A stretch of 40,373 nt of DNA from a virus: IMG/VR virus record IMGVR_UViG_3300035689_000034, positions 1 through 40,373 of that record; one strand, written 5' to 3'. The position numbers were made by a program, and so were the translations under genes. The notes under the pieces were generated by a model that worked only from the letters and a program-made list of their open reading frames with translations, had not been told where the DNA came from and made no database searches. Shown here piece after piece: positions 1 through 40,373 of the stretch; within the stretch, counting starts at the first letter, position 1; each line of letters opens with the position of its first letter.

Positions 1-153
1 CGAGGAACTCTCACCATCAGCACCAATACCTAATAGTCCGTTGATTGTGAGAAGTCTATTTATTTGATTTTGCTCAAGCTTAGAGCCACGCACAGAATCT
101 AAATAAGACTCCAGACCAGCTTTTTCTGCTTGTAATTTATCTGTAAGCGCCAT
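1..153 (-). CDS. Unknown protein, N-terminal 51 residues (partial)
   Basis: An open frame starts at the ATG at 153-151 and runs off the left edge of the window without a stop. The visible 51 residues begin MALTDKLQAEKAGLESYLDS and look helical and charged, perhaps a coiled coil. Gene order on the minus strand places it just downstream of the portal region, with the plus-strand fibre genes in between. It is divergent from the gene at 194, only 40 bases away. I cannot assign a function from this fragment. Confidence 0.6.
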   Translation of the reverse strand, partial: MALTDKLQAEKAGLESYLDSVRGSKLEQNQINRLLTINGLLGIGADGESSS

Positions 154-193
154 TCGCCTATCACTTTTTTAATTTATATACTACAATATTATC
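154..193. promoter_or_regulatory. Short divergent intergenic region, probable promoters
   Basis: This is the 40-base gap between two divergently oriented starts. It is almost pure A+T and contains TATACT and TACAAT hexamers on the plus strand before the ATG at 194, which could serve as -10 elements. No convincing -35 box or strong Shine-Dalgarno is visible for either gene. The call rests on position and composition. Confidence 0.3.
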
Positions 194-1879
194 ATGGCAG
201 TTAAGATAGGATATTCAATCGCAGACATTTCCGCAATTAAGTCGCTTCCCACAGACTTATTGCTTAATGGCTATGCACGACTGTGTAGGTCAGTTAATGC
301 ATGGTTCAGCTATAATTCAACTTCGACGGCTACTGCTGATGATGTTTCAGTATTATTGCCAGCTTCAGGCACAGGACGATGGTTCAAGCTCAAGGCTGAC
401 GTAGCGGCAACGGATGTACTTAACTTTAATGAATCAGTTGATGACCGAGTAGCAGCGCTAGTACAAGACAGCTGGACAATTAGCGCCAGTTACAATGATG
501 CAGCCAATACACTTACTTTTTCTGTAATTGCTGGGAGTATTGACGAAACTGAACTTACAGACTCAGGTGTGATAGCAGGAAGTTATACAAATGCAACTGT
601 AACTGTAGATAGTAAAGGAAGAGTAACATCCGCAACGAGTGGAGACTCGCTTGCTAATCCGATGACTGAGTATGGTGAAATTATATATGGTGGAGCTTCT
701 GGTATACCTCTAGCTTTGCCTCCAAATTTATCATTTACAAAAAAGCATCTTACTCAATATGCAACTTCGTTATGGGATTTAGATGAAATAACTACAGATT
801 TTTGGATTAATCTTCAAGATTCAGCAACTTTAACCATATCTGGTGGAGTAATTGATTCTATAGCTGATAAGTCAGGGAATGGACGTAATGCAACCCAAAC
901 AGGCTCTAATAGACCAACTTATCAAGCTACAGGTTTTAACGGTTTACCATGTGCATTTATGGCAGATATTAATGACTTTTTCAGTCTTCCAACTATCCCA
1001 CGTAATGATGGGCAATTAGTTTTTGCAATTATCGATACTACTGATTGCCCCACATACTCAGGGACTCAAGGCTATTTACCATTTATAGGCAATTTCTATT
1101 TAGGGTTTCAAAATCCTTACCAATTTCGCCCAGCTTATGTAAATGGAACCGCACCAGCATACATTGTCGCCCCAACTACAGGTAGGCGTAAATTTGGTGT
1201 AATGCTTTATTACTCAAGTTTTACAGGAGGTATTCAAATTGACGCTAGTTCCACTTATTCTCGTAATATTTCCGAATCTTCTGGCAACTGGAGTACTTAT
1301 TTATGTGTTGATGCGACAGCATTTAGTGACTATAGCACCGCAGGAATTAAAATTTGTGAAGTTGCAATTATCAACCCTAGTTCTGTAAGTCCCACAAATA
1401 TAGACAAGATTTGGGGATGTATGATGTGGCGTTGGGGTCTTGAGTCCTTACTTCCTTCGGGTCATCCTTATAAAACTTCCGCACCAAGGGCAGGTAGTAC
1501 GGAACTAATAAATACTGTTTGGGAAGAACCTCTTACAACCACTAAGGTTTTAAATAGTAATACTACTTTAATATCGAATACTAATTATGTAACAGTCTTA
1601 TCTGGTTGCGTACACACATTCCCTGCTAAGCCGTCTTTAGGTGATAGAATAGAAGTCTCTTCTGGAAATTTTAATACTAGAATTAATCATGGAAATTCTA
1701 GTCAACAAGTGTTAAATTTATCTACTTTAACTACTTCTGGGTTAAGTTCTGGAATTATACTTAACCCTTACTCCACTTGCGAGTTTATTTATATTAGCTT
1801 TAATTTATGGGTAACTGGTAAAAGAGCTAGGACTATTAATAATTGGTTAAATGGTACTGGAGAAGTTACAGCAACTTAA
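194..1879 (+). CDS. Tail fibre / receptor-binding type protein with ConA-like domain
   Basis: This is a 561-residue virion-type protein, probably an extracellular tail component that contacts the host surface. A GTGRWFK motif at about residues 59-65 recurs in the gene at 18905-20518 (AGRWFK). Residues about 129-151 carry the GxYTNxTVTVDSKGRVTSA repeat seen in many phage tail fibres. From about residue 198 to 430 there is a concanavalin-like/LamG-like region whose hallmark is DSIADKSGNGRNATQ followed by PTYQ. It starts the plus-strand pair that continues at 1885, five bases after its stop. The receptor role is inferred from family resemblance; I see no enzymatic motif. Confidence 0.65.
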   Translation: MAVKIGYSIADISAIKSLPTDLLLNGYARLCRSVNAWFSYNSTSTATADDVSVLLPASGTGRWFKLKADVAATDVLNFNESVDDRVAALVQDSWTISASYNDAANTLTFSVIAGSIDETELTDSGVIAGSYTNATVTVDSKGRVTSATSGDSLANPMTEYGEIIYGGASGIPLALPPNLSFTKKHLTQYATSLWDLDEITTDFWINLQDSATLTISGGVIDSIADKSGNGRNATQTGSNRPTYQATGFNGLPCAFMADINDFFSLPTIPRNDGQLVFAIIDTTDCPTYSGTQGYLPFIGNFYLGFQNPYQFRPAYVNGTAPAYIVAPTTGRRKFGVMLYYSSFTGGIQIDASSTYSRNISESSGNWSTYLCVDATAFSDYSTAGIKICEVAIINPSSVSPTNIDKIWGCMMWRWGLESLLPSGHPYKTSAPRAGSTELINTVWEEPLTTTKVLNSNTTLISNTNYVTVLSGCVHTFPAKPSLGDRIEVSSGNFNTRINHGNSSQQVLNLSTLTTSGLSSGIILNPYSTCEFIYISFNLWVTGKRARTINNWLNGTGEVTAT

Positions 1880-1884
1880 AAAAT

Positions 1885-4584
1885 ATGCCATTAATTAAAC
1901 CATCTACAACATATTATTACCGAACTAAGGCTGTCAATCTTGACGGCGAATCTGCATACTCAAATATAGTTTCAGTAACTACTCCTGCTTCATCAATTGG
2001 CATTGGAATTGCACCTCCTTCTCCATCTCAACCTGTAATAATGAAGGCAGAAAAAAATAGTAGCTTTATCAGAGTAGAAATACAAAAAACTGCACCAAAT
2101 GAGTACATAAAAGAGCTAAAACTTGACGTATCGGTAAATGCTGACTTCAGCGCACCACTTTATTCCAACTTGACGTTTTTACTTCCGCAAAACATTGTGG
2201 CGACAGAAAAAGAAACTCTGGCGCTTACTATTGGCGGCTTAGCGGCAAATACGCTTTATTACTACCGCTTGCGTTTCTCAAATGCAACTGGACTTTCGGC
2301 GTGGACTTCAGCTTCACTCTCTACTACACCAAATTTCCCTATTCCAGACCTCCTCGGCACAACCAATCTCACAGCTATTGCAGCTCGACTAAACTGGGGC
2401 AAAGTGACTGGCGCAACTACATATTTTGTAGATTTATCAACAAACATTGGCTTCACTTCATTAATCCTTAATAATGTCAATGCAGGAGATGTCAGTTTTC
2501 GAGATGTAGGGTCACTTACGGCTGAAAATCAATATTACTATCGTGTAAGGGCTTCGGATGGCACAACTACCTCGGCTAGCAGCGATGTAGTGACTTTTAC
2601 GACACTTCGAGATGTAGAAACTTATGATGAGCAATTTCAGAATCTCGCAACACCGACAATCAGCAACATAACAGATATTTACCTGACTTCTTTTTCTGCC
2701 TCTTGGAACGCAGTGGATTTGGCGGATAGTTATAGCGCTCAAATTTCAACTACGTCGGATTTTAGTGTCATTGCTCAAACTGTAGCAACCAAGAACACTT
2801 CAGTCAGCTTTGTGGGTCTAACGGCTGCAACAATCTACTATGTTCGAGTACGGGCAATCTCTGTTTGGCAAACTACTACGTATTCAGCCACACAAGTCGT
2901 CACAACGCTTTCCCTAAATACTTCATTAAATCCACCACAACTGCTTACTCCAACTACCATCACTTCGCGTAGCATCTTGTTTCAGTGGGTTCTACGGAGC
3001 TATGCAACTAGGTATTTGTTCGAGCTAAGCACTTCTTCGGTTTTTGCCTCGATTGCTTATTCGACTATTGTTGGGAATGTCGGGTCTTTGCTGCTAAATG
3101 AGGGTATTAGCCCTGCAACAGTATATTATTCACGTATTAGAGCGCTCAATTCTAGTCAGTCCTCAGATTACTCCAACTCTGTCACTACAACGACCTCAGC
3201 AGCCCTTACAAGCATCACTGGAATCACTACAACTAGTATTACCGACACTTCTGCTGTTATAGGGTGGACTTTGAATGGAAGTTACACCGATTATCTCCTT
3301 TCAGTATGGAAAACAGAGTCAAATGCTTACTTAGGGGTCAACTTCTATCGTAACAAGAGCCTCGGAAACACTAATACGCATACTATTGACTTATTCTTAG
3401 AGCCAAGTAGCAACTACAGCTACACAATTACTGGAAAAACAGCATCTGGCGACACAAAAACAACTGCAATTCAAACTTTTTCTACTAAAGCTGCTGCACC
3501 AATCTTGCAATTAGCTAAAAACTTACTAACATGGACTTATAACCTCAACAATTTAGAAGTTAGCACTGATTCTGATTTTAAATTTTTGCTTAAGGGGTAT
3601 CCGAGGATTGTTACTGACAATGGTAGCTTCAATGTAGAGAATTTGCTCGAATCTAGTACCAATTATTATATTCGAGGCAATTATAATGGTGGTATTTACT
3701 CTAATGTGGTCAGTACCTCGTCTCTTGCCATCTACAAAGGCACAATTGGTAAAAATTCTTTTTCTGCCTACTGGAAAAAAACCTCTGGAGCTACTTCATA
3801 CAGCGTTCAACTTAAAGTTCTTGATACTGGCAATTATGTTCCTGTAAGTGGTTTTACATTTCCTAAAAACATAGGCGATGTGGCTAATTACACATTTGAA
3901 TCTCTTTCTGCTGACACTCAATATCAGGTAATTGTATATGACTCAAATTCAAACATCTCTATCCCGTATTTATTTAGAACTAACTTGTTTAGTGATATAG
4001 AAGAACCTAGTACTGCATCTCTTACGGTTCCTACAGTAACCTTAAGTGGAAGTGCTAGTTTTGACCGAGCAAGTGTAACTCTGACTGAATATTCCAAGTA
4101 TTTACTTAATTTGGCGCGTGATAGCGCGTTTACGTTAGATAATAGCTATTTTGAGATTAGTTCCAATAATCTTGAACTTCTACTCAAACCTAATCGAACA
4201 TATTATTTACGTGCCTATGGATATGATGGAGATGACCGTACTGCTTCTCCTTCAACTACACTGACTATTAATACGCCTGTTGAACCTTATACAGCATTAG
4301 CTATCTCTTCTGCGCCAAGTATTACTAACGTCAATATACTTGATGAGTCACAGGTTGAAATTACGTTCGCTCAAGTAAGTAATGCTACCGATTATAAGTT
4401 GGAGATTAGTCGTGCAAGTACTTTCACAATTCTCGAAGAGCTTAGTGTTACTAGGTCTGCCGATAACAAATTTCTCGTTTTTGGTTTTTCAGGAACGACT
4501 CAGTACTACGCGAGGCTGTATGCTTTTAATAGCACCAAAATCAGCGCTTACAGCAGTACGACGACTATAGATACTACCCCATAA
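1885..4584 (+). CDS. Multi-fibronectin type III tail protein
   Basis: This 899-residue protein is built mainly of fibronectin III-like repeats of about 90 residues. Recurrent signatures are the strand end (T/N)xYYYRxRAxN and the strand start SFSASWNAV or SxILFQW, with xSxxSDFS in the middle. Such repeats decorate phage tails and fibres and may bind carbohydrate. I prefer the ATG at 1885 to an in-frame TTG at 1843, because 1843 lies inside the previous gene. The protein then opens in the middle of a fibronectin fold (PSTTYYYRTKAVNLDGES), so the first repeat is only half present. It is co-transcribed with the gene at 194 and followed 7 bases later by a 54-residue gene. Confidence 0.7.
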   Translation: MPLIKPSTTYYYRTKAVNLDGESAYSNIVSVTTPASSIGIGIAPPSPSQPVIMKAEKNSSFIRVEIQKTAPNEYIKELKLDVSVNADFSAPLYSNLTFLLPQNIVATEKETLALTIGGLAANTLYYYRLRFSNATGLSAWTSASLSTTPNFPIPDLLGTTNLTAIAARLNWGKVTGATTYFVDLSTNIGFTSLILNNVNAGDVSFRDVGSLTAENQYYYRVRASDGTTTSASSDVVTFTTLRDVETYDEQFQNLATPTISNITDIYLTSFSASWNAVDLADSYSAQISTTSDFSVIAQTVATKNTSVSFVGLTAATIYYVRVRAISVWQTTTYSATQVVTTLSLNTSLNPPQLLTPTTITSRSILFQWVLRSYATRYLFELSTSSVFASIAYSTIVGNVGSLLLNEGISPATVYYSRIRALNSSQSSDYSNSVTTTTSAALTSITGITTTSITDTSAVIGWTLNGSYTDYLLSVWKTESNAYLGVNFYRNKSLGNTNTHTIDLFLEPSSNYSYTITGKTASGDTKTTAIQTFSTKAAAPILQLAKNLLTWTYNLNNLEVSTDSDFKFLLKGYPRIVTDNGSFNVENLLESSTNYYIRGNYNGGIYSNVVSTSSLAIYKGTIGKNSFSAYWKKTSGATSYSVQLKVLDTGNYVPVSGFTFPKNIGDVANYTFESLSADTQYQVIVYDSNSNISIPYLFRTNLFSDIEEPSTASLTVPTVTLSGSASFDRASVTLTEYSKYLLNLARDSAFTLDNSYFEISSNNLELLLKPNRTYYLRAYGYDGDDRTASPSTTLTINTPVEPYTALAISSAPSITNVNILDESQVEITFAQVSNATDYKLEISRASTFTILEELSVTRSADNKFLVFGFSGTTQYYARLYAFNSTKISAYSSTTTIDTTP

Positions 4585-4591
4585 CAATATC

Positions 4592-8564: not shown

Positions 8565-8591
8565 ATACATGCATGTATTTTGTGCTATATT
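8565..8591 (+). promoter_or_regulatory. Promoter of the tRNA array with overlapping 14-base palindrome
   Basis: ATACATGCATGTAT at 8565-8578 is a perfect palindrome. It is followed by TGTGCTATATT (8581-8591), an extended -10 element (TG-n-TATATT). The first tRNA begins at 8599, about 8 bases after the -10, where transcription would be expected to start. The palindrome covers the normal -35 region, so it may bind an activator or repressor. Nearly the same extended -10 word recurs at 17916 and 27344. Confidence 0.5.
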
Positions 8592-8885: not shown

Positions 8886-8959
8886 GCGGCTTTAGCTCAG
8901 CTTGGTAGAGCAGGATTTTTCCAAATTCCGTGTCGAGTGTTCAAATCACTCAAGCCGCT
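8886..8959 (+). tRNA. tRNA-Gly (TCC)
   Basis: The acceptor GCGGCTT/AAGCCGC is perfect. The D-arm GCTC...GAGC with TAGCTCAGCTTGGTAGAGC is canonical. The anticodon stem GGATT/ATTCC has one T-T mismatch and encloses TTTCCAA, giving anticodon TCC. The T-arm is GAGTG-TTCAAAT-CACTC. Discriminator T; no CCA encoded. Confidence 0.88.
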
Positions 8960-8962: not shown

Positions 8963-9037
8963 CCTTGTGTAGTTCAGTGGATTAAGAACAAAGAGCTTCT
9001 ACCTCTTAAGTCGCAAGTTCGAGTCTTGCCACAAGGA
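8963..9037 (+). tRNA. tRNA-Arg (TCT)
   Basis: The acceptor CCTTGTG/CACAAGG is perfect with discriminator A. The D-arm is GTTC...GAAC, the anticodon stem AAGAG/CTCTT encloses CTTCTAC (anticodon TCT, reading AGA/AGG), and the T-arm is GCAAG-TTCGAGT-CTTGC. An AGA-reading tRNA is a common addition in A+T-rich phages with hosts poor in that tRNA. No CCA is encoded. Confidence 0.9.
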
Positions 9038-11490: not shown

Positions 11491-12360
11491 ATGAGTGATA
11501 CTTGGATACTTTATCAGACCACAAATTTGGTTAACGGTAAAATTTATGTAGGGGTGCATAAATTGGCTGATACTAGCTATTCTAGAAGCTACCTTGGTAG
11601 TGGCTGTGCTTTAAAACCAGCTATCGAAAAATATGGGAAAGAAAATTTTAGAAGGGCTACACTGGCAGAGTTCTCTTGTGCTAAAGATGCTTACGAAGCC
11701 GAGACTCAAATGGTTACTGAGGAGTTTTGCAATCGAAAAAATACTTATAATCTAAGAATAGGTGGTGAAGGCGGTATTTTCACAGAAGAAGCTAGAGTTA
11801 AAATGAGTGCGGCAGCTAAAGGAAAACAACACACGCCTGAAACTAGAGCAAAAATGAGTGCTTCACATAAGGGAAAAATAATAACGGCTGAAGCTAAGGC
11901 TAAAATTGGCGCGGCTTCTAAAGGGAACAAACATCGGTTAGGTAGTGTTGCTTCATTAGAGACAAGAGCAAAAATGAGTGCTTCTCAAAAAGGTAGAACT
12001 GCAAGCGAAGAAACTAAAATTAAGCTCAGCAATGCAGCTAAAGGAAGAGTACTTAGCGAGGAACATAAAGCAAAATTAAGTGCCTTACGCACAGGTAGAA
12101 CTACAAGTGCTGAAACTAAAAATAAAATGAGTATTGCTAATGGTAGACCTGTTGTACTGCATGGTAAATACTACACATCGAGCAAAAAAGCTGCTAAAAT
12201 CAATGAAATAGCTCACACTACTTTACGATGGAGGCTCAATAATCCTTCTCTTAACTGGATAGAATGGCGCTATGCTACAGAAGAAGAAGTTGCTAACTTT
12301 TTGAGAGAGGGAGTTGCGGAGGTTCAAAATTTGTTTGATAACGTTGTGCGCCATACGTGA
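11491..12360 (+). CDS. GIY-YIG homing endonuclease with multiple NUMOD3 repeats
   Basis: This 289-residue homing endonuclease has its GIY-YIG core at residues 5-90: WILYQTTNLVNGKIYVG, GSG at 37-39, and ETQMVTEEF with candidate catalytic Glu 71. It is strongly similar to the enzyme at 6313-6984. About six NUMOD3-like DNA-binding repeats (pattern xxExRxKMSAxxKGKxxT) run from about 95 to 210, and a NUMOD1-like helical unit follows (RPVVLHGKYYTSSKKAAKINE). It is divergent from an RHH gene. Its last 68 bases overlap the convergent receptor gene, so its final 20 or so residues are antisense to a conserved LamG end. Confidence 0.87.
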   Translation: MSDTWILYQTTNLVNGKIYVGVHKLADTSYSRSYLGSGCALKPAIEKYGKENFRRATLAEFSCAKDAYEAETQMVTEEFCNRKNTYNLRIGGEGGIFTEEARVKMSAAAKGKQHTPETRAKMSASHKGKIITAEAKAKIGAASKGNKHRLGSVASLETRAKMSASQKGRTASEETKIKLSNAAKGRVLSEEHKAKLSALRTGRTTSAETKNKMSIANGRPVVLHGKYYTSSKKAAKINEIAHTTLRWRLNNPSLNWIEWRYATEEEVANFLREGVAEVQNLFDNVVRHT

Positions 12361-27391: not shown

Positions 27392-28213
27392 ATGGAAACT
27401 GTAAATCCTATTATTGTTGATGACATTGAGTTATATGTAAGTGCCGATGGACAGGAATCTGGAATGTCCATCAGTGCGTTGGCTCGGTTTATTGGTAAGA
27501 CAGAAGCTAGTCTGCGTACAAGAATTTTGTCCAATATTGATAAGTCAGATGAAGACCGTGCAAAACCACTACCAAAAACCTTAGAGCCTTTTGCTGGTAA
27601 GGCTTTTAGCACCGTGCTTGCTGGTGTAAATGGTGCTAAAATCGTTCCAGCTAAAACTTGTGAGGCTTTGATTTTCTATTATGCTTTTGAAAAGCAAGAT
27701 TCTCAGGCTCTATTCGCCTATAGAAAATTTGCACAGAAAGGTCTGCACCAGTGGATTAAAGAGGCAACTAACAGCATTGAAGACAGAAACGACTCTAAGT
27801 TGCTTGCAACAATGCAGGAAATTCTTTCTGAAGTTCGTGGTCTAAAAGAAGTTTCTAAACGCTATACTGCAATCCGCGAAAAAACTTCAACATACATGAC
27901 TGGAACAGATGAGTTACTAAATCTGCTTGAAGACAATTCTGGTATGCTTCCAAGCGCTCACGACGGATTATTTCCTGACGGTAAAATGTCTCTCGAAGCT
28001 TGGCTCTACTACAAAAAAGATGGTTTGACTCTTCCTCGACCACTATTCAGACGACTTGCAAGCATTGTTGCTGAAACATATCGCTCTTTGGTTAAAGATG
28101 ACCCTGAAAAACGCCACTGCATTGTTGCTGGCAAGAAAAAATACAATGTGTCAGTGTATTCTGAGATTCATTTTCCTATTTTGCAAGTCGCGTTAAATAA
28201 AGTCATGGCTTAG
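27392..28213 (+). CDS. Antirepressor-like / phage regulatory protein of cyanobacterial type
   Basis: A 273-residue protein with METVNPIIVDDIELYVSADG and GMSISALARFIGKTEASLRTR (helix-turn-helix-like, about 24-45), then AFSTVLAGVNGAKIVPAKTCEALIFYYAFEKQDSQALFAYRKFAQKGLHQWI (about 71-122). From general knowledge, this combination of 'ISALARxxG' and an 'IVxxxxCxxxIxYYAF' core with a Trp-ending helix occurs in cyanobacterial phage-related regulators. C-terminal KYNVSVYSEIHFPILQVAL may be a second small domain. It is the only plus-strand gene inside the tail module, with its own promoter. Its TAG stop overlaps the tape measure stop as TTAG. The exact role is unproven. Confidence 0.55.
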   Translation: METVNPIIVDDIELYVSADGQESGMSISALARFIGKTEASLRTRILSNIDKSDEDRAKPLPKTLEPFAGKAFSTVLAGVNGAKIVPAKTCEALIFYYAFEKQDSQALFAYRKFAQKGLHQWIKEATNSIEDRNDSKLLATMQEILSEVRGLKEVSKRYTAIREKTSTYMTGTDELLNLLEDNSGMLPSAHDGLFPDGKMSLEAWLYYKKDGLTLPRPLFRRLASIVAETYRSLVKDDPEKRHCIVAGKKKYNVSVYSEIHFPILQVALNKVMA

Positions 28214-31200
28214 ACACCAAAAGCAACTTTAGACAAGTCCAGAAAAGCTTTACCGAAATCATTAAGACTTTTCTGGATAATATCACCACTCTTTCCAACC
28301 GCAGCACCAACTTTATTCAGGTTGTCCCCTCCAAAGGTGGTCTTCACTCCGTCAAGGCTGATTGTGTTGTTGACAACTACCGACAGATTTTGTTGACCTG
28401 ATACTGAGTTGGGGTTCTGGGGCTTGTTAGGAGAGGCTGCGGCAAAATCATTGGTAATTTTCTTGCTGTCCTTGTTTATTTGCTCTTGTAGTCTGAGAGC
28501 TTGTTGTTGAATCGAGTCTCTGGTATTAGCGCCAATCCCTTGTAGTTGCTTCTGCGTTGTATCGAAGTCTTTGCCGAATGGTGTACGTTCAGCTATATTT
28601 TGGATAGGTCGTTGAGCGCTCAGCCCAAATCCAGTATTAAGTGCAGTTCCTACTTCTCTAATTGAAGCTATACCAGCAATAGGGTTTCTCTGAGCTATAT
28701 CAAGAATTTGACTTTGACCAGCCAAATCGATGTTGCGAATTTTGTCAAAAGTATCTTGACGAACGAATTGCTGCGTTTCTTGGTTAAGGTTAAGCGCTCC
28801 TCTTGTTTGAGCTTGTGCATCAGCGATGTTTTTCGGGATATTGCCAATAACTTGATTAACTGAACTAATGTCCCCAACCTGAATGCCACTTGCAGGGTCA
28901 ATTTTCTCTACGAGCTTACCTAACAACTGTGTCTGTGTTAGCGCGTTGACCAACATAGTCTCTTCAGTTCTTAATTGTTGTTCTTGAACCTGAAGTGTGT
29001 TAAGTTCTTTTTCCCCAGCACGACCAGCTTCGTTTTTATCAGCTTTAGTTTTTTCGATTGTGCCAAGAATTTCATTACGACCAGCCCAAGCCGCCGCCGC
29101 AGGATTATTTTGCCCGAACAAGCCAAGAACAGAACCAGTGAAACCTCTCGTAGCTTGATTAGTTTGGACTGTGGAAGCTTCTCTACGTCCTTGGAGGTCT
29201 AAGCGGTTATTTGCTAAGTTGGCAACTTTATCGAGCCTATCAGCACCTTCTTTAATAGTTCCATTGAATACTTCCATTGAGGCGCTAAGTCCCTCAAGAA
29301 TAGTCTTTTGTTTAGTGTACTGCAAATCACGCGCAGCTTCGAGCTGGGCAGTCTTAACTTGCTTGTTAAGGTCTTTCTCCGCTTTTTGCAAGTCTGGGTC
29401 TGTACGTCCTTGTTTTTTAGCATCTGCATTGGCACTTGCAACTCTATCTCTAGTGGCAACTACAGTATTTAGTCGTGCCGTTATTTTGCTGATTTCTTTG
29501 TTGGCATCGAGCAACACTTGACCAGTTCTATCAGATAACTTAGAACCGATGTTACTAAACACCGAGCCAATAGAAGAGGCAGAAAAGAGGGATGAGGCAG
29601 TAGAACCGAGTGAACTAAATGCGTCGCCCACACCTTTTGATATGTCGATAAGCCGTTGTTGATTAGCAAAAGAGGCATCAATAGCAGCTTCGTTACGTGC
29701 AATAGTCTCAGCTAACGCTCCAATCTCTTGTTTGAGACGATTGGCGATAACAGTGAATTTTAGGTCATCTTCAGCTTGCTTGACTACCTTCTTGGCACTT
29801 TCAATGTCAATATTGGCAACGCGCTCTTTTAATTGGTCTGCGCCGCCAGTTATAGAGTCTTTACCTTTTTGGGCGTTGGCTATGTTAGTTTGTAGAGTTT
29901 CTTGCTCTGCCCTAATTTGGTCAGCCGCATCCAAATAAGCCTTACGAACAGCCTCAGAGCCAGAATTTCTAGCTACGTCAGTATCGATAAACTGATTGCC
30001 ATTTGCATCTTTACCGATAAGCTTAGAGAGTTTAGTAGCTACCGAATCATTTGCAGCATTTTTTGTAAGTTCTGGCAGGGTGTCTATAGGGATTATAGAA
30101 GTAGACTCTTTTGTAAATCTATCAAACTCTTCTTTAAAAAGAGCTTGTTTTAACTGCTCTAAAGATGCGGGGTCAATTTTAAAAAATCCGCCTTGAGCTT
30201 TACTTTTATTCTCTTTCAGTTTTTCTTGATTCAACTGTATGGTTTTGTCAGCTTCAGCTCTTTTATTTGCAACATCTTTGCTACTTGCTAAATCAATAGC
30301 TGAGTCAATTCCAAACTTAGATTGAGCATCTTTGCCAGAGATTTTGCCATTAGCTAATACTGATTGCAGTAACTGAGTCCTATTGCCGACCTCAGATTGC
30401 GCTGCTTCAAGAATGTTTCGCTTAGTGATTTCTTCTTCTCGCGCCGATATCGCCAGAGACTCTTGCTTAACTGACAATTCTTTTTCTGCCGCCGCAAGCT
30501 TTGCCTGAGCAAGTGAGACGCTGAAGGAGCCGAATTTGCTTTCTTGCGAAAATAAAGAAACAATATTTTTCTGTACGTCAAGAAGTTGTTGATTGAAGGT
30601 CAGTATTTGTTTACGCTTACCAAGCTCTTCAGTAATTTGCCCAGAGTTCTTGATATTAAAAGCTTCAGCGCTAAGGTCTGCAATCTTGCTTAATGTGTTC
30701 GCATACTCTACAGCGTCAATATTAGGTTTATCTAGTCCTGACTTAAGCGTAGCAATATTCTTCTGTATAGACTGCAAGTTACGCGCAGTAGCTTGACCTA
30801 TGGCTTCTCCCCCGACTGCCCCAAGCCCAGATAAAGTAGAGAACAGCTTAGTGTAGGAATTAGCAATTGCAGTGTTGTAACCGATTGCTTTTTCTGCGAC
30901 AACTTTAAAAGCGTTGTCAGTGGCTTTTTGCAGCAAAGGATTAGAAGCAATAACTTGAGTTGCTCTGGCTTCTTTTGTAATACGTTGCAAAGCATCTAAT
31001 GCGCCTTGAGGGTCTAAGTCAGCTTGCACTTCTATACTCTGAAGAGAGTCTTTTATCTGAGAGTTTAGCTGACTCAAAATATTTACGTCAACTTTAGATA
31101 CGTCTATGGTATCTACCGTAAATACCGTGTCAAGAGTTTTCTTCAAGTCTGCAAATTGAGCATTGGCAGAACTTCTAGCTGCCGAAGTAAGTGTTACAGA

Positions 31201-33996
31201 AAGAGGGATGTCAGTTTTGAAGGTATTTAGTCGCCGTAGTTGATTATCAAGAACAGCCCTTTTTCTATCAGTTTCAATAGCTTCTTTTTTGGCTTTAGCT
31301 TGACCTTCAAGAATTTTTTTCTGTTCTTGGAGACTTTCGACTAAATCTCTAGCTCCTGCACCGCCATTTTCTTGCGCGTCTTTAATTGCAGCAGCGACAG
31401 TTGAGATTTCTTTCTCGATTTGGTCTATTTGATTTTCAGATTTCTTTTTTACTACTTCTAAGTCTTCTTCACTTAGAACAATACCTAACTGAATCTTTCT
31501 TCCAACACCCTTTTCTTCGTTACTTAAGGGATTGAAGTCTTTATTTTTAATAGCTTGTTGATTTTTAGAGATTTGAGCAGACAATAATGACCTTGCCTTG
31601 CCAAACTCCTCTTGGTTGATACCACTTATAAAAGATTTACCAGAAACAGTGTTGTAAAACTGTTTCAAGTTGTCTAATCCATCTAGAAGGTTTTGAGTAC
31701 TTTGGTCAAGTTTCTTTACCTGAGCTTCTGCATCACTAAGTCCTCTTACAAACTCATCTAGTCCACCGACATTTTTTAAATCTTTGAGGTCTTCTGTTAG
31801 TGTTTTGATTTCAGGTATGTTTGCTTTGTTTGTTAGTCCTGTGAATACATTACCAAGAAATTGCAAAGCGGTAGACCCTGCAAAAACCGCAAGTCCAACC
31901 AACCCCATACCTTTAGCAAAAGAAAACAATTCACCAACTGCTCCGCCAATTACACTACGAGCAGGGGCAGCAGCTTCCCAAAGTTTACCGAGACTCCCAG
32001 ATAATTTTCCTACAGAATCTTTTGCTCCTGTAAAAGTATTTTTGATAGTACGTCCTGCACCAGCCAATCCACTTTTTTCTCCGAAAGAATTTAGACGTTT
32101 TAGTTCGCTCTCGCTTGCAGGAGGAATAAATACGCTATTCTTAATTACTTCAGGTTGTATTTTGTTACTTTTTCTTGCTCCAATTCCAGTGTTTTCTTTT
32201 ACTTCTTGCCCAACTTTTTCAATTTCTTCGTTAACTTGCTTTACAATATCTTTTACTTTAGATACAACTGTCTTAGCAATTTTTACAATAGAGGCTTCAA
32301 TCTTTTGGGCTAGTGTTTCATATTTAACATCTCCATCGTCAAGCTTTAATGCTTTCTTAACTACTTCCCCCAAACGACCAAGATTCTTAAACAGAAAAGA
32401 GAAAAATGCAAGTGGAGCGACCACACTAAATACGCTACCAATAAATCCTGTAATAGCTTGAAATTTGTTATTTAGACCATCAAGAGAGCCAGCAAAACTT
32501 CCAAAAGTACTGCTACTTCGTGTTCCTAATACCCCCAGCAATGTATTTGTGTCTTGAAGATTTTGCTTTACTCCTTCCCCAATTCCAGAGCCAACTTCTT
32601 CTACGGCAGCTTGAGATTTATTAAAAGAAGACCTAAACGCACCTTCTAATGTTTGACCACGCTCCTTAGAAGATTCACTGAACTTATCAATACCTTCGGC
32701 ACTACCTGCATTTTCGATTTCCTCCCGAAAGTTCTTGCGATTTTCTCCTCCAGCTTGTAATAGTGCGTTTGCCGCCTTAGCCGCCTCGCTCGAACTGAAG
32801 ATGTTGTTAAGCGCATCTCGACTACCTCCAGTAGCTTTACCAATACGCTCAATAATTTTAATCAGACCTTCGGCTTTCAGCGCCCCAAATCCAAATTGAA
32901 TTGGCTTTCCAGCTTCGTCTTTTAAAGTGGCTAGCGCGTTTTGAGCTTTAGGTACATTACTAACAATTTCGTTGACAAGAGACTTGATTGCAGTCGAACC
33001 CTCACTAGCAGACAGACCTTGTGTAGTAACAAGAGCTAAAGATGTTGCCATTTCTTCAAAGGCAACTCCAGCACCTACACCAGTGGATGCTAATTCAGCC
33101 GCCTCAGCATTTAATTGGTCAAGGGTGAGAATACCTACCTTAGTAGTCGCAAATAGTTGTGCAGCTCGTTTATCGGCATCTCTGAAGGTATCTCCTAAAT
33201 TCTTGTTAGCAGCAAGAATCTTGACAATACCTTGGTTAGTCCCTTCGATATTAGCAAAACCAACTTCGGACAAGTTAATAGATGCAGTACCTACACTCTT
33301 TTGAGCTTGTCTAGAGCTAAAGCCAGCAGATGCAATATCGTATTGAGCATTGAGAGTTTGTGTAGAGTTTGTTGCAAAGTTTGTTTCACGCTGTAATTCG
33401 CGTAACGCCTTGATACGAGCGCCAACTGCACTAAGAGCTGACTCTTCAGAAGAAGTTGTAATTGTGGCTAGACGAAATGCCGCACTCTCTACTTTGCTAT
33501 ATGCAGCAACTGCGCCAATAGACCATTTTTGATATGCTTGGTTATCAAAAATGATTTGACTAGCAGTACTAATCCTATTAAACGTACTGTCAGTAGTTTC
33601 TTCGAGAATTTTTATATTAGAAGCAAATTCTTTTGTGCCAAGAATTGCCTCACTGAAATCGATGCTTTTACTGATGCCAGCTAGATTCTTTAAGGATTGG
33701 CTAGCCGCATCTACGATGGTCTTAGCCCCTTGAAGCTTGTTGATTGCGCTAGAGATGTTCGCAATACCAAATGTGGCATTTACAGCAATAGAGCCAAGCG
33801 CACCGATAGACGCTCCTAACTTAGCCGCTTGACTAATATTGGACGACCACGTTCCAGACAATTTGGCGAGACTTTTATCAAGCTCTCCTATGTTGCCAAG
33901 CGTACCTTTAATATCATCACCAATGTTTAAAGTGCCTTTATTAAAAGCATCTTTAAGTCCTGACGATTGTGCTGTATCTATTACTGGTGCTGCCAT
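28210..33996 (-). CDS. Tail tape measure protein
   Basis: This 1928-residue protein sets tail length and is ejected with the DNA. Residues about 280-420 match the TP901-type tape measure core (QLFATTKVGILTLDQLNAEA; GVAFEEMATSLALVTTQGLS; EGSTAIKSLVNEIV). Hydrophobic, Gly-rich stretches follow near 520-545 and 710-740. Very long helical coiled-coil regions with repeated Glu/Lys/Gln/Ala blocks run from 760 to 1850. At about 1.5 angstrom per residue a tail near 290 nm is expected, which supports a siphovirus. It lies directly downstream of the frameshifted chaperone genes, the standard order. Confidence 0.92.
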   Translation of the reverse strand: MAAPVIDTAQSSGLKDAFNKGTLNIGDDIKGTLGNIGELDKSLAKLSGTWSSNISQAAKLGASIGALGSIAVNATFGIANISSAINKLQGAKTIVDAASQSLKNLAGISKSIDFSEAILGTKEFASNIKILEETTDSTFNRISTASQIIFDNQAYQKWSIGAVAAYSKVESAAFRLATITTSSEESALSAVGARIKALRELQRETNFATNSTQTLNAQYDIASAGFSSRQAQKSVGTASINLSEVGFANIEGTNQGIVKILAANKNLGDTFRDADKRAAQLFATTKVGILTLDQLNAEAAELASTGVGAGVAFEEMATSLALVTTQGLSASEGSTAIKSLVNEIVSNVPKAQNALATLKDEAGKPIQFGFGALKAEGLIKIIERIGKATGGSRDALNNIFSSSEAAKAANALLQAGGENRKNFREEIENAGSAEGIDKFSESSKERGQTLEGAFRSSFNKSQAAVEEVGSGIGEGVKQNLQDTNTLLGVLGTRSSSTFGSFAGSLDGLNNKFQAITGFIGSVFSVVAPLAFFSFLFKNLGRLGEVVKKALKLDDGDVKYETLAQKIEASIVKIAKTVVSKVKDIVKQVNEEIEKVGQEVKENTGIGARKSNKIQPEVIKNSVFIPPASESELKRLNSFGEKSGLAGAGRTIKNTFTGAKDSVGKLSGSLGKLWEAAAPARSVIGGAVGELFSFAKGMGLVGLAVFAGSTALQFLGNVFTGLTNKANIPEIKTLTEDLKDLKNVGGLDEFVRGLSDAEAQVKKLDQSTQNLLDGLDNLKQFYNTVSGKSFISGINQEEFGKARSLLSAQISKNQQAIKNKDFNPLSNEEKGVGRKIQLGIVLSEEDLEVVKKKSENQIDQIEKEISTVAAAIKDAQENGGAGARDLVESLQEQKKILEGQAKAKKEAIETDRKRAVLDNQLRRLNTFKTDIPLSVTLTSAARSSANAQFADLKKTLDTVFTVDTIDVSKVDVNILSQLNSQIKDSLQSIEVQADLDPQGALDALQRITKEARATQVIASNPLLQKATDNAFKVVAEKAIGYNTAIANSYTKLFSTLSGLGAVGGEAIGQATARNLQSIQKNIATLKSGLDKPNIDAVEYANTLSKIADLSAEAFNIKNSGQITEELGKRKQILTFNQQLLDVQKNIVSLFSQESKFGSFSVSLAQAKLAAAEKELSVKQESLAISAREEEITKRNILEAAQSEVGNRTQLLQSVLANGKISGKDAQSKFGIDSAIDLASSKDVANKRAEADKTIQLNQEKLKENKSKAQGGFFKIDPASLEQLKQALFKEEFDRFTKESTSIIPIDTLPELTKNAANDSVATKLSKLIGKDANGNQFIDTDVARNSGSEAVRKAYLDAADQIRAEQETLQTNIANAQKGKDSITGGADQLKERVANIDIESAKKVVKQAEDDLKFTVIANRLKQEIGALAETIARNEAAIDASFANQQRLIDISKGVGDAFSSLGSTASSLFSASSIGSVFSNIGSKLSDRTGQVLLDANKEISKITARLNTVVATRDRVASANADAKKQGRTDPDLQKAEKDLNKQVKTAQLEAARDLQYTKQKTILEGLSASMEVFNGTIKEGADRLDKVANLANNRLDLQGRREASTVQTNQATRGFTGSVLGLFGQNNPAAAAWAGRNEILGTIEKTKADKNEAGRAGEKELNTLQVQEQQLRTEETMLVNALTQTQLLGKLVEKIDPASGIQVGDISSVNQVIGNIPKNIADAQAQTRGALNLNQETQQFVRQDTFDKIRNIDLAGQSQILDIAQRNPIAGIASIREVGTALNTGFGLSAQRPIQNIAERTPFGKDFDTTQKQLQGIGANTRDSIQQQALRLQEQINKDSKKITNDFAAASPNKPQNPNSVSGQQNLSVVVNNTISLDGVKTTFGGDNLNKVGAAVGKSGDIIQKSLNDFGKAFLDLSKVAFGV

Positions 33997-36103: not shown

Positions 36104-36126
36104 TTAGTTTTTCTTCTTATGCATAA

Positions 36127-36146
36127 GATTTTATTCAATTATATCA
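36127..36146 (-). promoter_or_regulatory. Promoter-like element of the tail tube gene
   Basis: TGATATAATTGAATAAAATC (minus strand) shares 18 of 20 bases with the element at 27240-27221. It contains TG-A-TATAAT as extended -10 and lies in the short gap between the stop at 36153 and the start at 36103. CTTTGC is the best -35 candidate, 16 bases upstream. Confidence 0.5.
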
Positions 36147-36152
36147 GAGATG

Positions 36153-36635: not shown

Positions 36636-36638
36636 TTA

Positions 36639-37343: not shown

Positions 37344-37346
37344 AAT

Positions 37347-37874
37347 TTACCCGTAAAGTAATTTTCCAACATAAGGTAGATAGCCTTGACGAATAGCAGA
37401 CTTACCTTCGCGGAATGTATCTAGTTTGGCACGATAGTTGGCTCGGTTGTTCGCACTTTCACGGATTTTGTTTTTGGCTTCTACTTCCTGTTGCCTGTGA
37501 ATTGCTTCGTTAATTTGTTGGTCAGTCATTTCGGCTAGTTCATCGTCGGGAATGTCGTCGATGCTGTAGTATCGTTGGCGACCAGTTAAATTTAGGAACT
37601 CGGCTACTCGCTGGCGCTCGTTGGCAGAAAAAAGAAGTGAGGGCTTGTCTGAGCTGAAGTTAGCTAGGTTAGTGTTCATAAATGCGAATGTCATGTTCTT
37701 GCCCATACCTGCTGAGATTACACCTTTGCGGCGCTTTACTACTGGTGCTGTGAAACCGCCACTTTTTTTGTTGGTTGCGCCCATACGAGCTTGGGGCAAA
37801 CGTTCACCGAACATCGGTTTCATTGCCCCTTGTTTCATCTTGGGTAGGTTTGGCGCTTTAAGCTGATTTTCCAT
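37347..37874 (-). CDS. Unknown basic head-region protein
   Basis: A 175-residue, strongly basic protein starts MENQLKAPNLPKMKQGAMKP. The N-terminal 60 residues are unstructured and Lys/Arg/Met/Gly-rich, followed by helices (EMTDQQINEAIHRQQEVEAK; NRANYRAKLDTFREGKSAIR). Its start overlaps the upstream gene by 17 bases. It may bind DNA or capsid interior; no family recognised. Confidence 0.5.
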   Translation of the reverse strand: MENQLKAPNLPKMKQGAMKPMFGERLPQARMGATNKKSGGFTAPVVKRRKGVISAGMGKNMTFAFMNTNLANFSSDKPSLLFSANERQRVAEFLNLTGRQRYYSIDDIPDDELAEMTDQQINEAIHRQQEVEAKNKIRESANNRANYRAKLDTFREGKSAIRQGYLPYVGKLLYG

Positions 37875-38382
37875 TTGTGGTTTCTGCGGTGTAGCCGAAT
37901 GTCTTGAGTCCTTCGTATACTAGACCATGAGTGGGGTCGGGCAGTTCAAAGTCGATAACGGCGATGTCTTCCCATTTCTTGCTCTTGAGTGGAGCGATGC
38001 GGTCTAGTTGTGAATATGATTCAATTTTAGCATCTTTACGAGCTTCGGTAATTTTTTGGGTCGCTACTTTGCCAACGAACTTGAGAGCTTCAATTTCGGA
38101 TGCAGGGGCGCTATTGATTTTCAGCTTTTTAACTGTGTGGATTGTGGTTGTATTGTCGAAGGTTAGGTCGTTGCTAGGAATGAAGGAGATGTCAGGGTTG
38201 TGGTTGGCGGGAGTAACGGTTTGGAACTCACTAGCGTTAACCAGAACTGCGGTAGATTTAGCTCTGGCTTCTACAATGTCAATTTCTGTTTCACTGTAGA
38301 TACCCTCTGGGACTACAAATCCTTCATAATTTATATATGCGGGAAAAATACGATATTGCTTTGGGGGTGTTTTGGGAATCAT
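37858..38382 (-). CDS. Head-region protein with helix-hairpin-helix (ComEA-like) domain
   Basis: A 174-residue protein starts MIPKTPPKQYRIFPAYINYE. Residues about 87-141 (LKINSAPASEIEALKFVGKV, then ITEARKDAKIESYSQLDRIAPL and KKWEDI) follow the ComEA-type double helix-hairpin-helix pattern: 'INxAxxxEIxxLxxVGxxxAxxIxxxR...FxSxxDLxxIxxxxxKxxxxI'. Such domains bind DNA backbones non-specifically. The N-terminal part (VVPEGIYSETEIDI) is beta-like. It is the first gene after the homing endonuclease on the minus strand. A DNA-contacting capsid or connector protein is a fair inference. Confidence 0.6.
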   Translation of the reverse strand: MIPKTPPKQYRIFPAYINYEGFVVPEGIYSETEIDIVEARAKSTAVLVNASEFQTVTPANHNPDISFIPSNDLTFDNTTTIHTVKKLKINSAPASEIEALKFVGKVATQKITEARKDAKIESYSQLDRIAPLKSKKWEDIAVIDFELPDPTHGLVYEGLKTFGYTAETTNGKSA

Positions 38383-38404
38383 AGTTGTATAAGTGTAGAT
38401 GTAT

Positions 38405-39631
38405 TTATGATAGCAGAGATTGTTCTGCGGCTAGTCTGGCAGCGATTGCGTCTTCAAGTTCAGTGAACGTTCCAAGAGTATGCCTCTTATTGTTTATATT
38501 GATTACTGCACGATACTTACCGTTATCACGTAATTGTACCCCAGTAGGTAAAGCTTTTTCTTTTTTAGGTTTGTTAAACAGATAAGCAAAACTTTCGTCG
38601 CCGTCATAGTAATACTTTTCAGCTTGCACACGACGTTCTTTTGCTTCGGCTTCGGTTTTGAAAGTACCTACTTGCACAGTTTTACCGTTTAAACGGATTC
38701 TAGCTAACCAATCACCTCTTCTTTTGTCAAACACTACTCCACCACCATAATGTTTTTGGTTATGTGGTGTGTTTGCTTGCAATTTAGCGGCTTCTAGTTC
38801 TGGCAATAAAGATTCATCATTGTCCCAATAAACTTTTTCAGCTAAACTTCTAACTGTTCGTGCAAGCTGCTCTGTTTTATAAATACCGAGATAAATCTTC
38901 TTATGGTTTACAGAAATAATAGCCAGCCATGTGCCATCAGCAGTTAACTTCACGCCTGTACCATATTTACGTGCATTTACAGTATTTGTTATTGCCCCTC
39001 TTTTTAGGGTATCTAATTCTTCTTTTACAGAAATATCATTATCCCAGTACAGCCTTTCAGCTAAGTCTTTTACCTTTCTTGCTATAGCTTCTCCAAGGTA
39101 TGTGCCAAGGTAAGTGTCTGTCTTTTCTCCTAAAAGCTTGATGTTCACTTTCCAAGTACCAGTTTTTGTAATATAGACACCAGACCCACGAACTCTTTTT
39201 ACTTCAGCCATCTCAAGCTTTAATTCTTCTGGATGCTTCTTACCAAAGTTGGGATTAGCCACACCTCTTCTGAGAGACATCTTTTGTCTTGTAGATTCTT
39301 TAATAGGTGGTAAAGCTTTTAGATGATTAGCAATTCTTACCATGTTGTAACATTCACGCCAATCTGGGATAGCGTCTAGATATTTCTGCTCGACGGCTCT
39401 TAGCTCTTCTATAGATTTACCCAGACATTCTTCTACAATTTCAAATTGGAAAGCAGACTCACCGTATTTATTGAAAGCAGCTTGCAGATGAAAATTAGCG
39501 TGTTTATTTACTCTAAGTTTTGAAAAATGCCCGTAATGTCTTTTCTTAATGTTTACGGTAGAGCCAATGTAATAAAGCCCATTTAGAGTATTTGTAATTT
39601 TATAGATGCCAGCAATTCTTGGAAGTTTCAT
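38405..39631 (-). CDS. GIY-YIG homing endonuclease with four AP2 repeats
   Basis: A 408-residue mobile endonuclease. GIY at residues 8-10 (AGIYKITN) and YIG at 21-23 (YYIGST), Arg31, and candidate catalytic Glu81 (LRAVEQKYLD) define the nuclease. A NUMOD3-like segment (SLRRGVANPNFGKKHPEE) is at about 119-136. Four AP2/ERF-like DNA-binding modules follow at about 149-197, 223-269, 295-342 and 361-405, each of the form GVxxxxxGxWxxxIxxxxKxxxLGxYxxxExAxxxRxxAEKxYW. It sits between the capsid gene's terminators and the head-tail genes, in the same direction. Confidence 0.88.
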   Translation of the reverse strand: MKLPRIAGIYKITNTLNGLYYIGSTVNIKKRHYGHFSKLRVNKHANFHLQAAFNKYGESAFQFEIVEECLGKSIEELRAVEQKYLDAIPDWRECYNMVRIANHLKALPPIKESTRQKMSLRRGVANPNFGKKHPEELKLEMAEVKRVRGSGVYITKTGTWKVNIKLLGEKTDTYLGTYLGEAIARKVKDLAERLYWDNDISVKEELDTLKRGAITNTVNARKYGTGVKLTADGTWLAIISVNHKKIYLGIYKTEQLARTVRSLAEKVYWDNDESLLPELEAAKLQANTPHNQKHYGGGVVFDKRRGDWLARIRLNGKTVQVGTFKTEAEAKERRVQAEKYYYDGDESFAYLFNKPKKEKALPTGVQLRDNGKYRAVININNKRHTLGTFTELEDAIAARLAAEQSLLS

Positions 39632-39667
39632 AATTCTGCGATAAGGATATTAAGGAAAAAGAAAAAA

Positions 39668-39721
39668 AAGTGGTCGGGCAATCCTTAATTTGCGTTCCCG
39701 TAGCTATTCGGTAGACCACTT
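39668..39721 (-). terminator. Branched inverted repeat ending in a T-run
   Basis: AAGTGGTC pairs exactly with GACCACTT over 54 bases. Inside is a second helix formed by CGGG/CCCG and GCAA/TTGC, plus a small CTA/TAG hairpin, giving a three-way layout. On the minus strand the closing arm runs straight into TTTTTTTTC, as in an intrinsic terminator. It lies after the main capsid terminator and before the homing endonuclease, which starts 37 bases later. The complexity is more than a terminator needs. Confidence 0.5.
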
Positions 39722-39737
39722 GTATACATAATAACAA

Positions 39738-39774
39738 AAATCCCCCAACCAACAATCTGTCGGAAGAGGGATTT
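39738..39774 (-). terminator. Intrinsic terminator of the major capsid gene
   Basis: On the minus strand AAATCCCTC pairs with GGGGGATTT (one G-T pair), with an inner CCGAC/GTTGG helix, followed by TTTGTTATT. It begins 25 bases after the capsid stop. Strong termination here fits an abundant capsid transcript. Confidence 0.7.
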
Positions 39775-39798
39775 AATTTTAACTAATTAGGATTAGTA

Positions 39799-40373
39799 TT
39801 AGGAGATGACAGTGAGTCCTTGAGTTGAATCCCATGTATTGAACTCGGCTAAGCTGACAGACGATTCTAAGCTTGCTTGCTTGCTCATTTTGCGCGCTGC
39901 GCCAGTTTTTCCGATTGTCACTGCGCTGACCAACTGCATACTGGCAGTGTTGGTGATGGAGAGAGGTGGGTCGCCAGCCTTGGTATAAGTATTGACGTAG
40001 ATACCTGCTTTTCCGCCATTCTCCAACGTACCACCAAGGATACGATTGAATTGACCTTGACGGCTCAAGAACACGACAGTACCTTCATCAAGTACGCGAG
40101 TAGGAACTGCTTTGCCCTCGTTATCAGTCAATTCCACATAATCGTCAACTAAGACAAACTTAGGCAGGAATCTGCGAGTCAGAACTTCATTAACTTGGTC
40201 GATGCTAGGAGTACCAGTAATAACGTTACCGATAACATTAGCTGTAACTACAGCTTCCTTAACGGACTTACAACGAACCATGTTCAGAAGTAAACGCTCA
40301 GAGATAGCAATCTCATCAGCAGGAAATCCATTAACCCACTTGTAGTTAGAGTGCATATCTACAAGGTCTTGTA
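39799..40373 (-). CDS. Major capsid protein, C-terminal part
   Basis: The frame is open to the right edge, so the gene starts outside the window; an ATG at 40356 is internal. The visible 190 residues begin QDLVDMHSNYKWVNGFPADE, with NMVRCKSVKEAV, a domain LTRRFLPKFVLVDDYVELTD, and VFLSRQGQFNRILGGTLENG. This is the arrangement of gpE-like HK97-fold capsid proteins: a long helix, 'G-x-P-N/D-x-x-x-x-S/E-R-L', then the A-domain and P-domain strands. It is followed by a strong terminator. Confidence 0.7.
   Translation of the reverse strand, partial: QDLVDMHSNYKWVNGFPADEIAISERLLLNMVRCKSVKEAVVTANVIGNVITGTPSIDQVNEVLTRRFLPKFVLVDDYVELTDNEGKAVPTRVLDEGTVVFLSRQGQFNRILGGTLENGGKAGIYVNTYTKAGDPPLSITNTASMQLVSAVTIGKTGAARKMSKQASLESSVSLAEFNTWDSTQGLTVIS

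Follow-up and report, generated by a model that had tools for sequence, protein, structure and literature searches.

Loss of many restriction-type recognition words from the Pam2/PA-SR01 lineage of Pseudanabaena siphophages: probable long selection by host restriction enzymes

Absence of the words and its statistics

Why would 40,373 bases of phage DNA contain not a single GATC, GGCC or CCGG? The stretch analysed here (the window) is the whole IMG/VR virus record IMGVR_UViG_3300035689_000034 (40,373 b, G+C 0.397), and a sequence-only reading of it had claimed complete absence of these three words, against expectations of about 145, 65 and 65 copies, and had attributed this to restriction enzymes in the host range. 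Counting returns zero for all three, with expectations of 144.4, 62.8 and 62.8 from base composition and of 109.7, 55.2 and 33.8 from a maximal-order Markov model. The five-base words CCWGG and GGWCC, the latter already suspected to be missing, are absent from the window as well, and the nine other palindromic tetramers reported to be present are all found (CATG 47, GTAC 120, CTAG 124, TCGA 134, TGCA 196, GCGC 90, CGCG 39, ACGT 82, AGCT 260). The best explanation, which we hold with a probability of roughly 0.78, is that selection by numerous type II restriction enzymes has acted over a long time, in which restriction endonucleases of the hosts met by this phage lineage would be the selecting agent. 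The selective removal of the words is supported, as set out below; for the agent, restriction is the best inference.

Could codon usage, base composition or a mutational bias by itself have removed the words? Codon use is indeed skewed at the junctions concerned, in keeping with the strong constraint on codon choice that had been proposed: all 76 Asp codons that precede a codon starting with C are GAC (elsewhere there are 360 GAT and 192 GAC), and ATC is used in none of the 89 Ile codons that follow a codon ending in G. However, in 30 synonymous shuffles that kept each protein and its codon usage the words return, with 95.2 +/- 7.0 copies of GATC (minimum 78), 41.5 +/- 4.9 of GGCC (minimum 33), 32.3 +/- 3.4 of CCGG (minimum 28), 16.9 of CCWGG and 13.2 of GGWCC, all five being observed at 0. 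The open reading frames (ORFs) underlying these nulls were called mechanically (at least 60 amino acids, overlap of up to 60 b) and are not those of the deposited annotation. A stricter null, in which the bases flanking each codon are also kept, expects 37.8 GATC, 13.5 GGCC, 14.4 CCGG, 5.9 CCWGG and 7.3 GGWCC. Stretches outside ORFs lack the words too, as seen in 15,267 such bases of the related phage Pam2, which hold no GATC against 51.8 expected from base composition. Both nulls and the non-ORF stretches thus agree that the depletion goes beyond codon use and protein sequence. Moreover, closely similar words are not reduced, and the proteome-wide lack of Trp-Pro described below is no codon effect. 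The shuffles refute the codon form of this explanation, and nothing short of a mutational process directed at particular words could save it; we regard the explanation as hardly conceivable.

In prokaryotic viruses, type II words below 10% of expectation have been called eliminated, which was the outcome in 7.5% of the cases considered (Rusinov et al. 2018, PMC6286503). By that measure (observed/expected below 0.1, expected above 15), with synonymous shuffles in place of the formula of that paper, GATC, GGCC, CCGG and CCWGG are eliminated from the window; for GGWCC the expectation of 13.2 lies under the limit of 15 in the window, and Pam2 passes it with 0/43.1 (pairs of this kind are observed/expected counts). 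CATG was considered as a further purged word, being low against the Markov and base-composition expectations, and was dropped since its 47 copies compare with 56.1 in the codon-preserving null. GTAC and CTAG were likewise rejected, as their counts show no purge in the lineage described next.

The Pam2/PA-SR01 clade and the persistence of the purge

The closest relatives of the window are the Pseudanabaena siphophages Pam2 (ON014754, Lake Chaohu), whose host is P. mucicola Chao 1806 (PMC9382816), and PA-SR01 (MT234670, Singapore). They cover 0.75 and 0.77 of the window at mean identities of 78.4% and 78.1%, respectively, and the window is largely collinear with both, with a similar gene order, so that on these alignments it is to be regarded as part of a Pam2/PA-SR01-like siphophage of Pseudanabaena. 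GATC, GGCC, CCGG, CCWGG and GGWCC are all absent from the whole genomes of Pam2 (142,856 b) and PA-SR01 (137,012 b), and since these were sequenced independently the zeros are no artefact of assembly or of the window. The same holds for ten clade records with a total of 781,189 b (the window, Pam2, PA-SR01, and three long and four short IMG/VR contigs; the whole contigs G297 to G299 were used in place of L011-L013 and L015), which share genes and hence are not independent samples. Against the synonymous null these records give 0/1746 for GATC, 0/755 for GGCC, 0/580 for CCGG, 1/357 for CCWGG and 0/251 for GGWCC. The six largest of them are 76.6-86.2% identical across their aligned parts, and the word-free state, which codon use does not explain and which persists in these divergent relatives, must therefore be old or constantly renewed. 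No distant relative lacking the purge was obtained: beyond Pam2 and PA-SR01 a TerL search gave only records below 60% identity (about 23-26% among the matches listed), and a search with the capsid protein matched Pam2 and PA-SR01 only. One of the long contigs, G298, carries a tmRNA-like gene reported by ARAGORN (L142:14093-14437).

How much mutational opportunity this persistence represents can be read from the differences between Pam2 and PA-SR01. In stretches that are 85% or more identical, the 1,095 isolated synonymous changes leading from Pam2 to PA-SR01 should by expectation have produced 46.6 copies of the five four- and five-base words, and the 1,119 leading the other way 50.8, yet both genomes are free of them. 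The zero follows from the zeros of both genomes, and the information of the test lies in the expectation; an earlier version placed the changes singly in the other background, and its count of created words was not zero. Individual words differ between lineages, a pattern that gain and loss of single enzymes would produce. In G297, GWGCWC (17/64), RCATGY (11/42) and ATGCAT (18/25) are relaxed, and in G299 CACGTG (4/11). G298 has its only CCWGG, GRCGYC and GTCGAC within about 160 b of one ORF with adhesin-like repeats, for which tblastn gave no match in five other records of the clade, and its leftover sites of other words (three TACGTA, for example) sit outside this ORF; a recent gain of the adhesin-like gene is the simplest reading.

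Breadth of the purge

The loss extends well beyond the five shortest words. A word scan pooling Pam2, PA-SR01 and the window, to which the counts of this section refer, shows that 37 of the 64 six-base palindromes reach no more than about 0.20 of expectation, and the next one, above a gap, is GCTAGC at 0.52. Twelve of the 37 contain GATC, GGCC or CCGG and 25 do not; for CCCGGG and GGGCCC, both among the 37, fewer than three copies each are expected. Among testable five-base words (at least 15 expected, and free of GATC, GGCC and CCGG) CCWGG and GGWCC are the only ones lost; the word that follows them stands at 0.46. Degenerate classes are lost whole (GRCGYC 0/99, GGYRCC 0/120, CYCGRG 0/76, GRGCYC 0/80) or almost so (CMGCKG 1/160, GWGCWC 2/129, RCATGY 3/75), and the asymmetric words GGTCTC (1/65) and CCGCTC (1/49) are also low. 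Neighbouring words are kept, as in CACGTA (97/83) against TACGTA (2/62) and GTCAAC (169/130) against GTCGAC (0/29). The lost words and classes are type II enzyme specificities, many of which were first described in filamentous cyanobacteria (AvaI, AvaII, AcyI, AsuII, NspI, NspBII and others); the likewise cyanobacterial specificity CTTAAG has escaped the purge (57/74). The three tetramers had originally been linked to the conserved methyltransferases of Anabaena-type cyanobacteria. This part of the proposal fits less well, in that the host of the relatives is Pseudanabaena and many more words have been purged than the three targets named; as the purged set includes CYCGRG, GRCGYC, GGYRCC and CTGCAG, it points to restriction enzymes and not to those methyltransferases.

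Two further groups of words were noticed in the same scan. Asymmetric words of the form GCNNGC are in part nearly absent (GCAGGC 2/58, GCCCGC 1/24, GCGAGC 6/69, GCACGC 7/41) and in part above expectation (GCAAGC 239/154, GCCAGC 124/85), and we know of no single specificity that fits the lost ones. Some split palindromes are low too, namely GACNNNGTC (2/34), GCCNNNNNGGC (1/17), CCTNAGG (3/42), GACNNNNNNGTC (4/33) and CCANNNNNTGG (5/40).

Effects on proteins and tRNAs

The sequence Trp-Pro can be encoded only as TGG-CCN and thus always contains GGCC. It does not occur once in the 232,331 residues of the ten clade records, against 100.4 expected from within-protein composition. Nine other Pseudanabaena phages (Pam1, Pam3-5 and Pan1-5) contain 4-17 each, in total 99 against 106.4 expected; four of them were counted in part here and for the four- and five-base words (the first 50,000 b of Pam3, Pan1 and Pan2, and 36,000 of the 39,509 b of Pam5). 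Since the lack of Trp-Pro follows from the lack of GGCC, it is a consequence of the purge and no independent evidence for it. Pro-Trp forces no taboo word and yet is reduced (11/18.6 in Pam2, 7/15.4 in PA-SR01). TTCGAA is usual in tRNA T arms; all 16 tRNA genes checked in the clade, a set without a control, are free of it and of the five four- and five-base words.

Host DNA and other phages of the genus

For host composition we relied on 170 kb of plasmids of Pseudanabaena sp. ABRG5-3 and on 20 kb of a plasmid of strain PCC 7367. Plasmid b of ABRG5-3 (120 kb) is poor in several of the purged words (GGCC 10/233, CCGG 6/185, CCWGG 31/129, GGWCC 18/63, GRCGYC 0/54), and TTCGAA is absent from two plasmids of this strain (0/43). 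Over 62 six-base palindromes the spectra of the clade and of the ABRG5-3 plasmids correlate with a rho of 0.71, compared with 0.54 to -0.14 between the clade and other cyanophages. Of the purged hexamers, 25 contain none of GATC, GGCC and CCGG; 16 of these stand below 0.25 in the plasmids and nine do not. The words missing from the clade thus overlap with those avoided by the plasmids of one strain. GGWCC, CYCGRG and GRCGYC are zero in the PCC 7367 plasmid. Part of the word list therefore looks like the mark of a common restriction climate, though one not valid for every strain. As a separate observation, a possible restriction-modification system lies on plasmid a of ABRG5-3 (L120:33399-37324), where a pair of neighbouring methyltransferase-like genes precedes a gene for an HNH endonuclease.

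Are the enzymes available among cyanobacteria? Searches of 292 genomes, the phylum of a cyanobacterial metagenome-assembled genome, gave matches over the cut-off for the families DpnII (29), BsoBI/AvaI (17), NgoPII (5) and HpaII (6), which shows only that these families exist in the phylum; the best-scoring match to the plasmid DNA in these genomes had 72% identity. Genes for GATC-cutting enzymes were predicted in ten genomes by a survey whose abstract names 97 cyanobacteria (PMC4390886). In four other cyanophages, of which 45 kb each were measured, GGWCC is at zero in three.

The nine other Pseudanabaena phages provide a second comparison. Pam1 to Pam5 were isolated on a single strain, P. mucicola Chao 1806 (PMC9382816), and Pan1 to Pan5 on Pseudanabaena sp. 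Chao 1811 (PMC9837993). The four-base purge is absent from all nine: over at most 45 kb each, none has GATC, GGCC or CCGG below 15% of the codon null, the fewest GATC being the 38 of Pan3, and none of the nine shows the total loss of the three four-base and both five-base words. The window, Pam2 and PA-SR01 match none of the methyltransferase families PF01555, PF00145, PF02086 and PF05869, the four searched. Five of the nine do (Pam4, Pan2, Pan3, Pan4 and Pan5), and with the thymidine-modification-like annotation of Pam3 and the 7-deazaguanine genes of Pan1, seven carry such other armour. Of the two features tested that mark a phage protected by its own methylation or base modification, methyltransferase genes (of these four families) and a normal site frequency, the window, Pam2 and PA-SR01 have neither. 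Some of the other phages show word biases of their own: GTAC is found 0 times in Pam1 and once in Pan3, AGCT stands at 0/53 in Pam4 (codon null), and GATC reaches two to three times its base-composition expectation, the opposite of the Pam2 clade, in Pam3 (470/169), Pan1 (366/172) and Pan4 (332/124).

What explains the purge?

If restriction is the agent, a lineage which as far as searched has no DNA methyltransferase of its own would escape cutting through loss of the recognition sites. A genome regaining a site would be cut, and the words would in this way be kept at or near zero over long evolution; the purge would have run mostly through synonymous change, with the missing Trp-Pro as an effect at the protein level. 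The specificities concerned would include GATC, GGCC, CCGG, CCWGG and GGWCC, classes such as CYCGRG, GRCGYC, GGYRCC, CMGCKG, GRGCYC, GWGCWC and RCATGY, and single words such as CTGCAG, TTCGAA, GAATTC, GTCGAC, TGCGCA and TACGTA, and their number is perhaps 25 or more.

Several observations weigh against this explanation. Pam1 and Pam5 keep the four-base words (Pam1/Pam5: GATC 73/216, GGCC 189/325, CCGG 122/262) and have no match to the four methyltransferase families, from which it follows that, at present, phages carrying these words are not all excluded by the host strain of Pam2. As both phages infect although they are unarmoured by our searches, the agents would have to include other or earlier hosts, or there is other protection such as host methylation. 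By six-base palindromes alone, moreover, the clade is not exceptional. In sequences cut at 45,000 b (except L011-L013; L009, L010, L014, L015 and L016 were left out), the window has 16 low palindromes among 43 testable ones and Pam2 has 18 among 44, compared with 22 among 49 for Pam1, 27 among 49 for Pan2, 25 among 44 for Pan3 and, despite their modification genes, 17 among 43 for Pam3 and 17 among 31 for Pam4; all six-base palindromes together reach 0.34-0.37 of expectation in Pan3, Pan2 and Pam1 and 0.68 in the window. The weaker correlation of the hexamer spectrum with those of other cyanophages (0.54 for Nodularia 2AV2, 0.43 for Nostoc A1, 0.39 for PaV-LD) means that part of the rho of 0.71 may be general. 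The PCC 7367 plasmid keeps GGCC (54/88), CCGG (33/60) and CCWGG (80/42), and Pseudanabaena appears in a list of genera with low numbers of restriction-modification systems (PMC8262939). Most strong DpnII matches lie in genomes of about 2 Mb, which are probably not photosynthetic, though three genomes of 4.4-6.0 Mb also gave strong matches. A test of purging after gene acquisition is weakly informative: tnpB of PA-SR01 contains no site of 14 motif classes, and the same is true of one of the 22 bacterial homologues counted (of 80 homologous loci). Finally, plasmid b of ABRG5-3 has an excess of GATC (749/625) and of HIP1 (GCGATCGC, 155/23.7), which places GATC outside the pressure that shaped that plasmid.

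But why would the phage shun a word in which host-genus DNA abounds? Unlike the shared part of the list, the loss of GATC looks special to the phage, and its cause is the least certain part of our account. One answer would be that the targets of conserved solitary host methyltransferases, GATC and GGCC among them, were purged because of methylation itself, either through methyl-dependent enzymes (type IV, DpnI- or Mrr-like) in some hosts or through methylation disturbing phage functions. The contrast between the GATC excess in the plasmids and the zero in the phage fits this idea. So do the haloviruses PH1, SH1 and HHIV-2, which lack GATC though their host is rich in it, and a Haloferax enzyme that recognises A-methylated GATC (both PMC3622292), as well as two orphan cyanobacterial methyltransferases, for GATC and CGATCG (PMC4390886). 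However, avoidance of methylation leaves CCWGG, GGWCC and the hexamers (CTGCAG, GRCGYC, GGYRCC and others) unexplained, and the ABRG5-3 plasmids avoid GGCC and CCGG though they would carry host methylation. As an explanation of the purge we consider it unlikely.

The same contrast between a GATC- and HIP1-rich plasmid and a GATC-free phage would also arise if a phage endonuclease degraded host DNA at GATC, a word that abounds in HIP1-rich cyanobacterial DNA, and the phage were safe for want of sites. The protein gp188 of Pam2, which is small and of the PD-(D/E)XK type, matches Mrr_cat (E-value 1.3e-6), and the clade carries other nucleases. Yet such self-immunity covers one or two words and not dozens, the PA-SR01 gene at the place of gp188 by gene order matched DUF5754 only, and none of the seven Pam2 proteins scanned matches a family that we know to cut GATC. 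The nuclease reading of gp188 was considered and gained no further support, and self-immunity as a cause of the purge strikes us as very improbable.

Selection by host restriction enzymes thus remains our preferred explanation. A bolder version of it would read the missing words as an inventory of the restriction systems of the whole host community (perhaps at least 25 specificities), which forbids Trp-Pro and rewrites tRNA T arms, with GATC standing apart, in that it would label host DNA as non-self to a nuclease, either methyl-dependent or encoded by the phage; in this full form we hold the idea to be quite doubtful.

Features of the window

Table 1. Positions in the 40,373-b window of word-free tracts, leftover sites and selected genes
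Feature	Positions	Strand	Remark
Word-free tract	1..40373		without GATC, GGCC, CCGG, CCWGG, GGWCC, CYCGRG, GRCGYC
Word-free tract, further words	1..40373		without GGYRCC, GRGCYC, GWGCWC, CTGCAG, TTCGAA, GAATTC, GTCGAC
CAGCTG, single leftover site of the CMGCKG class in the window	469..474		
TACGTA, single leftover copy in the window	2877..2882		
ACATGC (8567) and GCATGT (8571), overlapping; the only two leftover sites of the RCATGY class	8567..8576		
tRNA-Gly(TCC)	8886..8959	+	T arm TTCAAAT, hence without TTCGAA
tRNA-Arg(TCT)	8963..9037	+	T arm TTCGAGT, hence without TTCGAA
GIY-YIG/NUMOD3 homing-endonuclease-like gene	11491..12360	+	mobile gene type, yet without the five four- and five-base words
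1928-residue protein at the position of the Pam2/PA-SR01 tape measure gene	28210..33996	-	also without these words
HNH/GIY-YIG homing-endonuclease-like gene	38405..39631	-	without these words

The window gene at 194-1879 adjoins the counterpart of Pam2_53 and has a weak match to a PHROG structural protein. The names under which Pam2_03, Pam2_54 and Pam2_92 were deposited ('botulinum neurotoxin type A/B' and 'neurexin', for example) seem to stem from spurious best hits.

Significance and comparison with known systems

The clade amounts to a clean natural experiment, in which the window and five divergent records (116-148 kb) have nearly the same list of missing words, whereas unrelated phages of the same host strain keep the four-base words and the plasmids of one strain of the host genus share most of the list but not GATC. 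If restriction is indeed the cause, the restriction specificities of unsequenced hosts would be readable from viral DNA, the words relaxed in G297 would mark enzymes lost not long ago, and the missing Trp-Pro would be a case of restriction limiting protein sequence. In practical terms, DNA of the clade should resist many common cloning enzymes. A report of site elimination in this clade was not found in the open-licence literature searched, and neither 'restriction' nor 'GATC' appears in the main text of papers describing these phages and their sisters.

How does the clade compare with viruses known to avoid such words? The measurements cover 28 phages in all, some of them in part. With the cases of PMC6286503 it shares elimination to below 10% of expectation. 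It differs from them in that three four-base, two five-base and dozens of six-base words are at or near zero together, and in resting on the five long records and the window of a cyanophage lineage, the string 'cyano' being absent from the text of that paper. The Staphylococcus phages K and fRuSau02 are, like the clade, large virulent phages without GATC (PMC5618024). In phage K (measured, like HF2 below and the other cyanophages above, over the first 45-50 kb, here 50 kb) only GATC (0/76) and GGCC (0/7) are low among the four-base words, and the two low palindromes among 33 testable six-base ones both contain GATC. Escherichia phage T7, like the clade, misses many six-base palindromes, and with 27 of 59 testable ones below 20% it exceeds the 16 of 43 of the window; CCWGG stands at 2/56 and GATC at 6/121. 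Its genome is of 40 kb, however, neither GGCC nor CCGG falls below 15%, and some GATC sites remain. In Helicobacter phage KHP30, two of 30 testable six-base palindromes are low. The purge of halovirus HF2 is at least as broad as that of the clade, with GATC, CTAG, CCWGG and GGWCC at zero and 40 of 45 testable six-base palindromes low over the 50 kb measured, and avoidance of GATC and CTAG in HF1/HF2 is mentioned in PMC3622292; HF2 differs in being an archaeal virus, in that GGCC and CCGG are not low, and in having a gene annotated as N-6 DNA methylase. Elimination of restriction sites in phages is already established (PMC6286503), and the Pam2/PA-SR01 clade is a strong further case of it.

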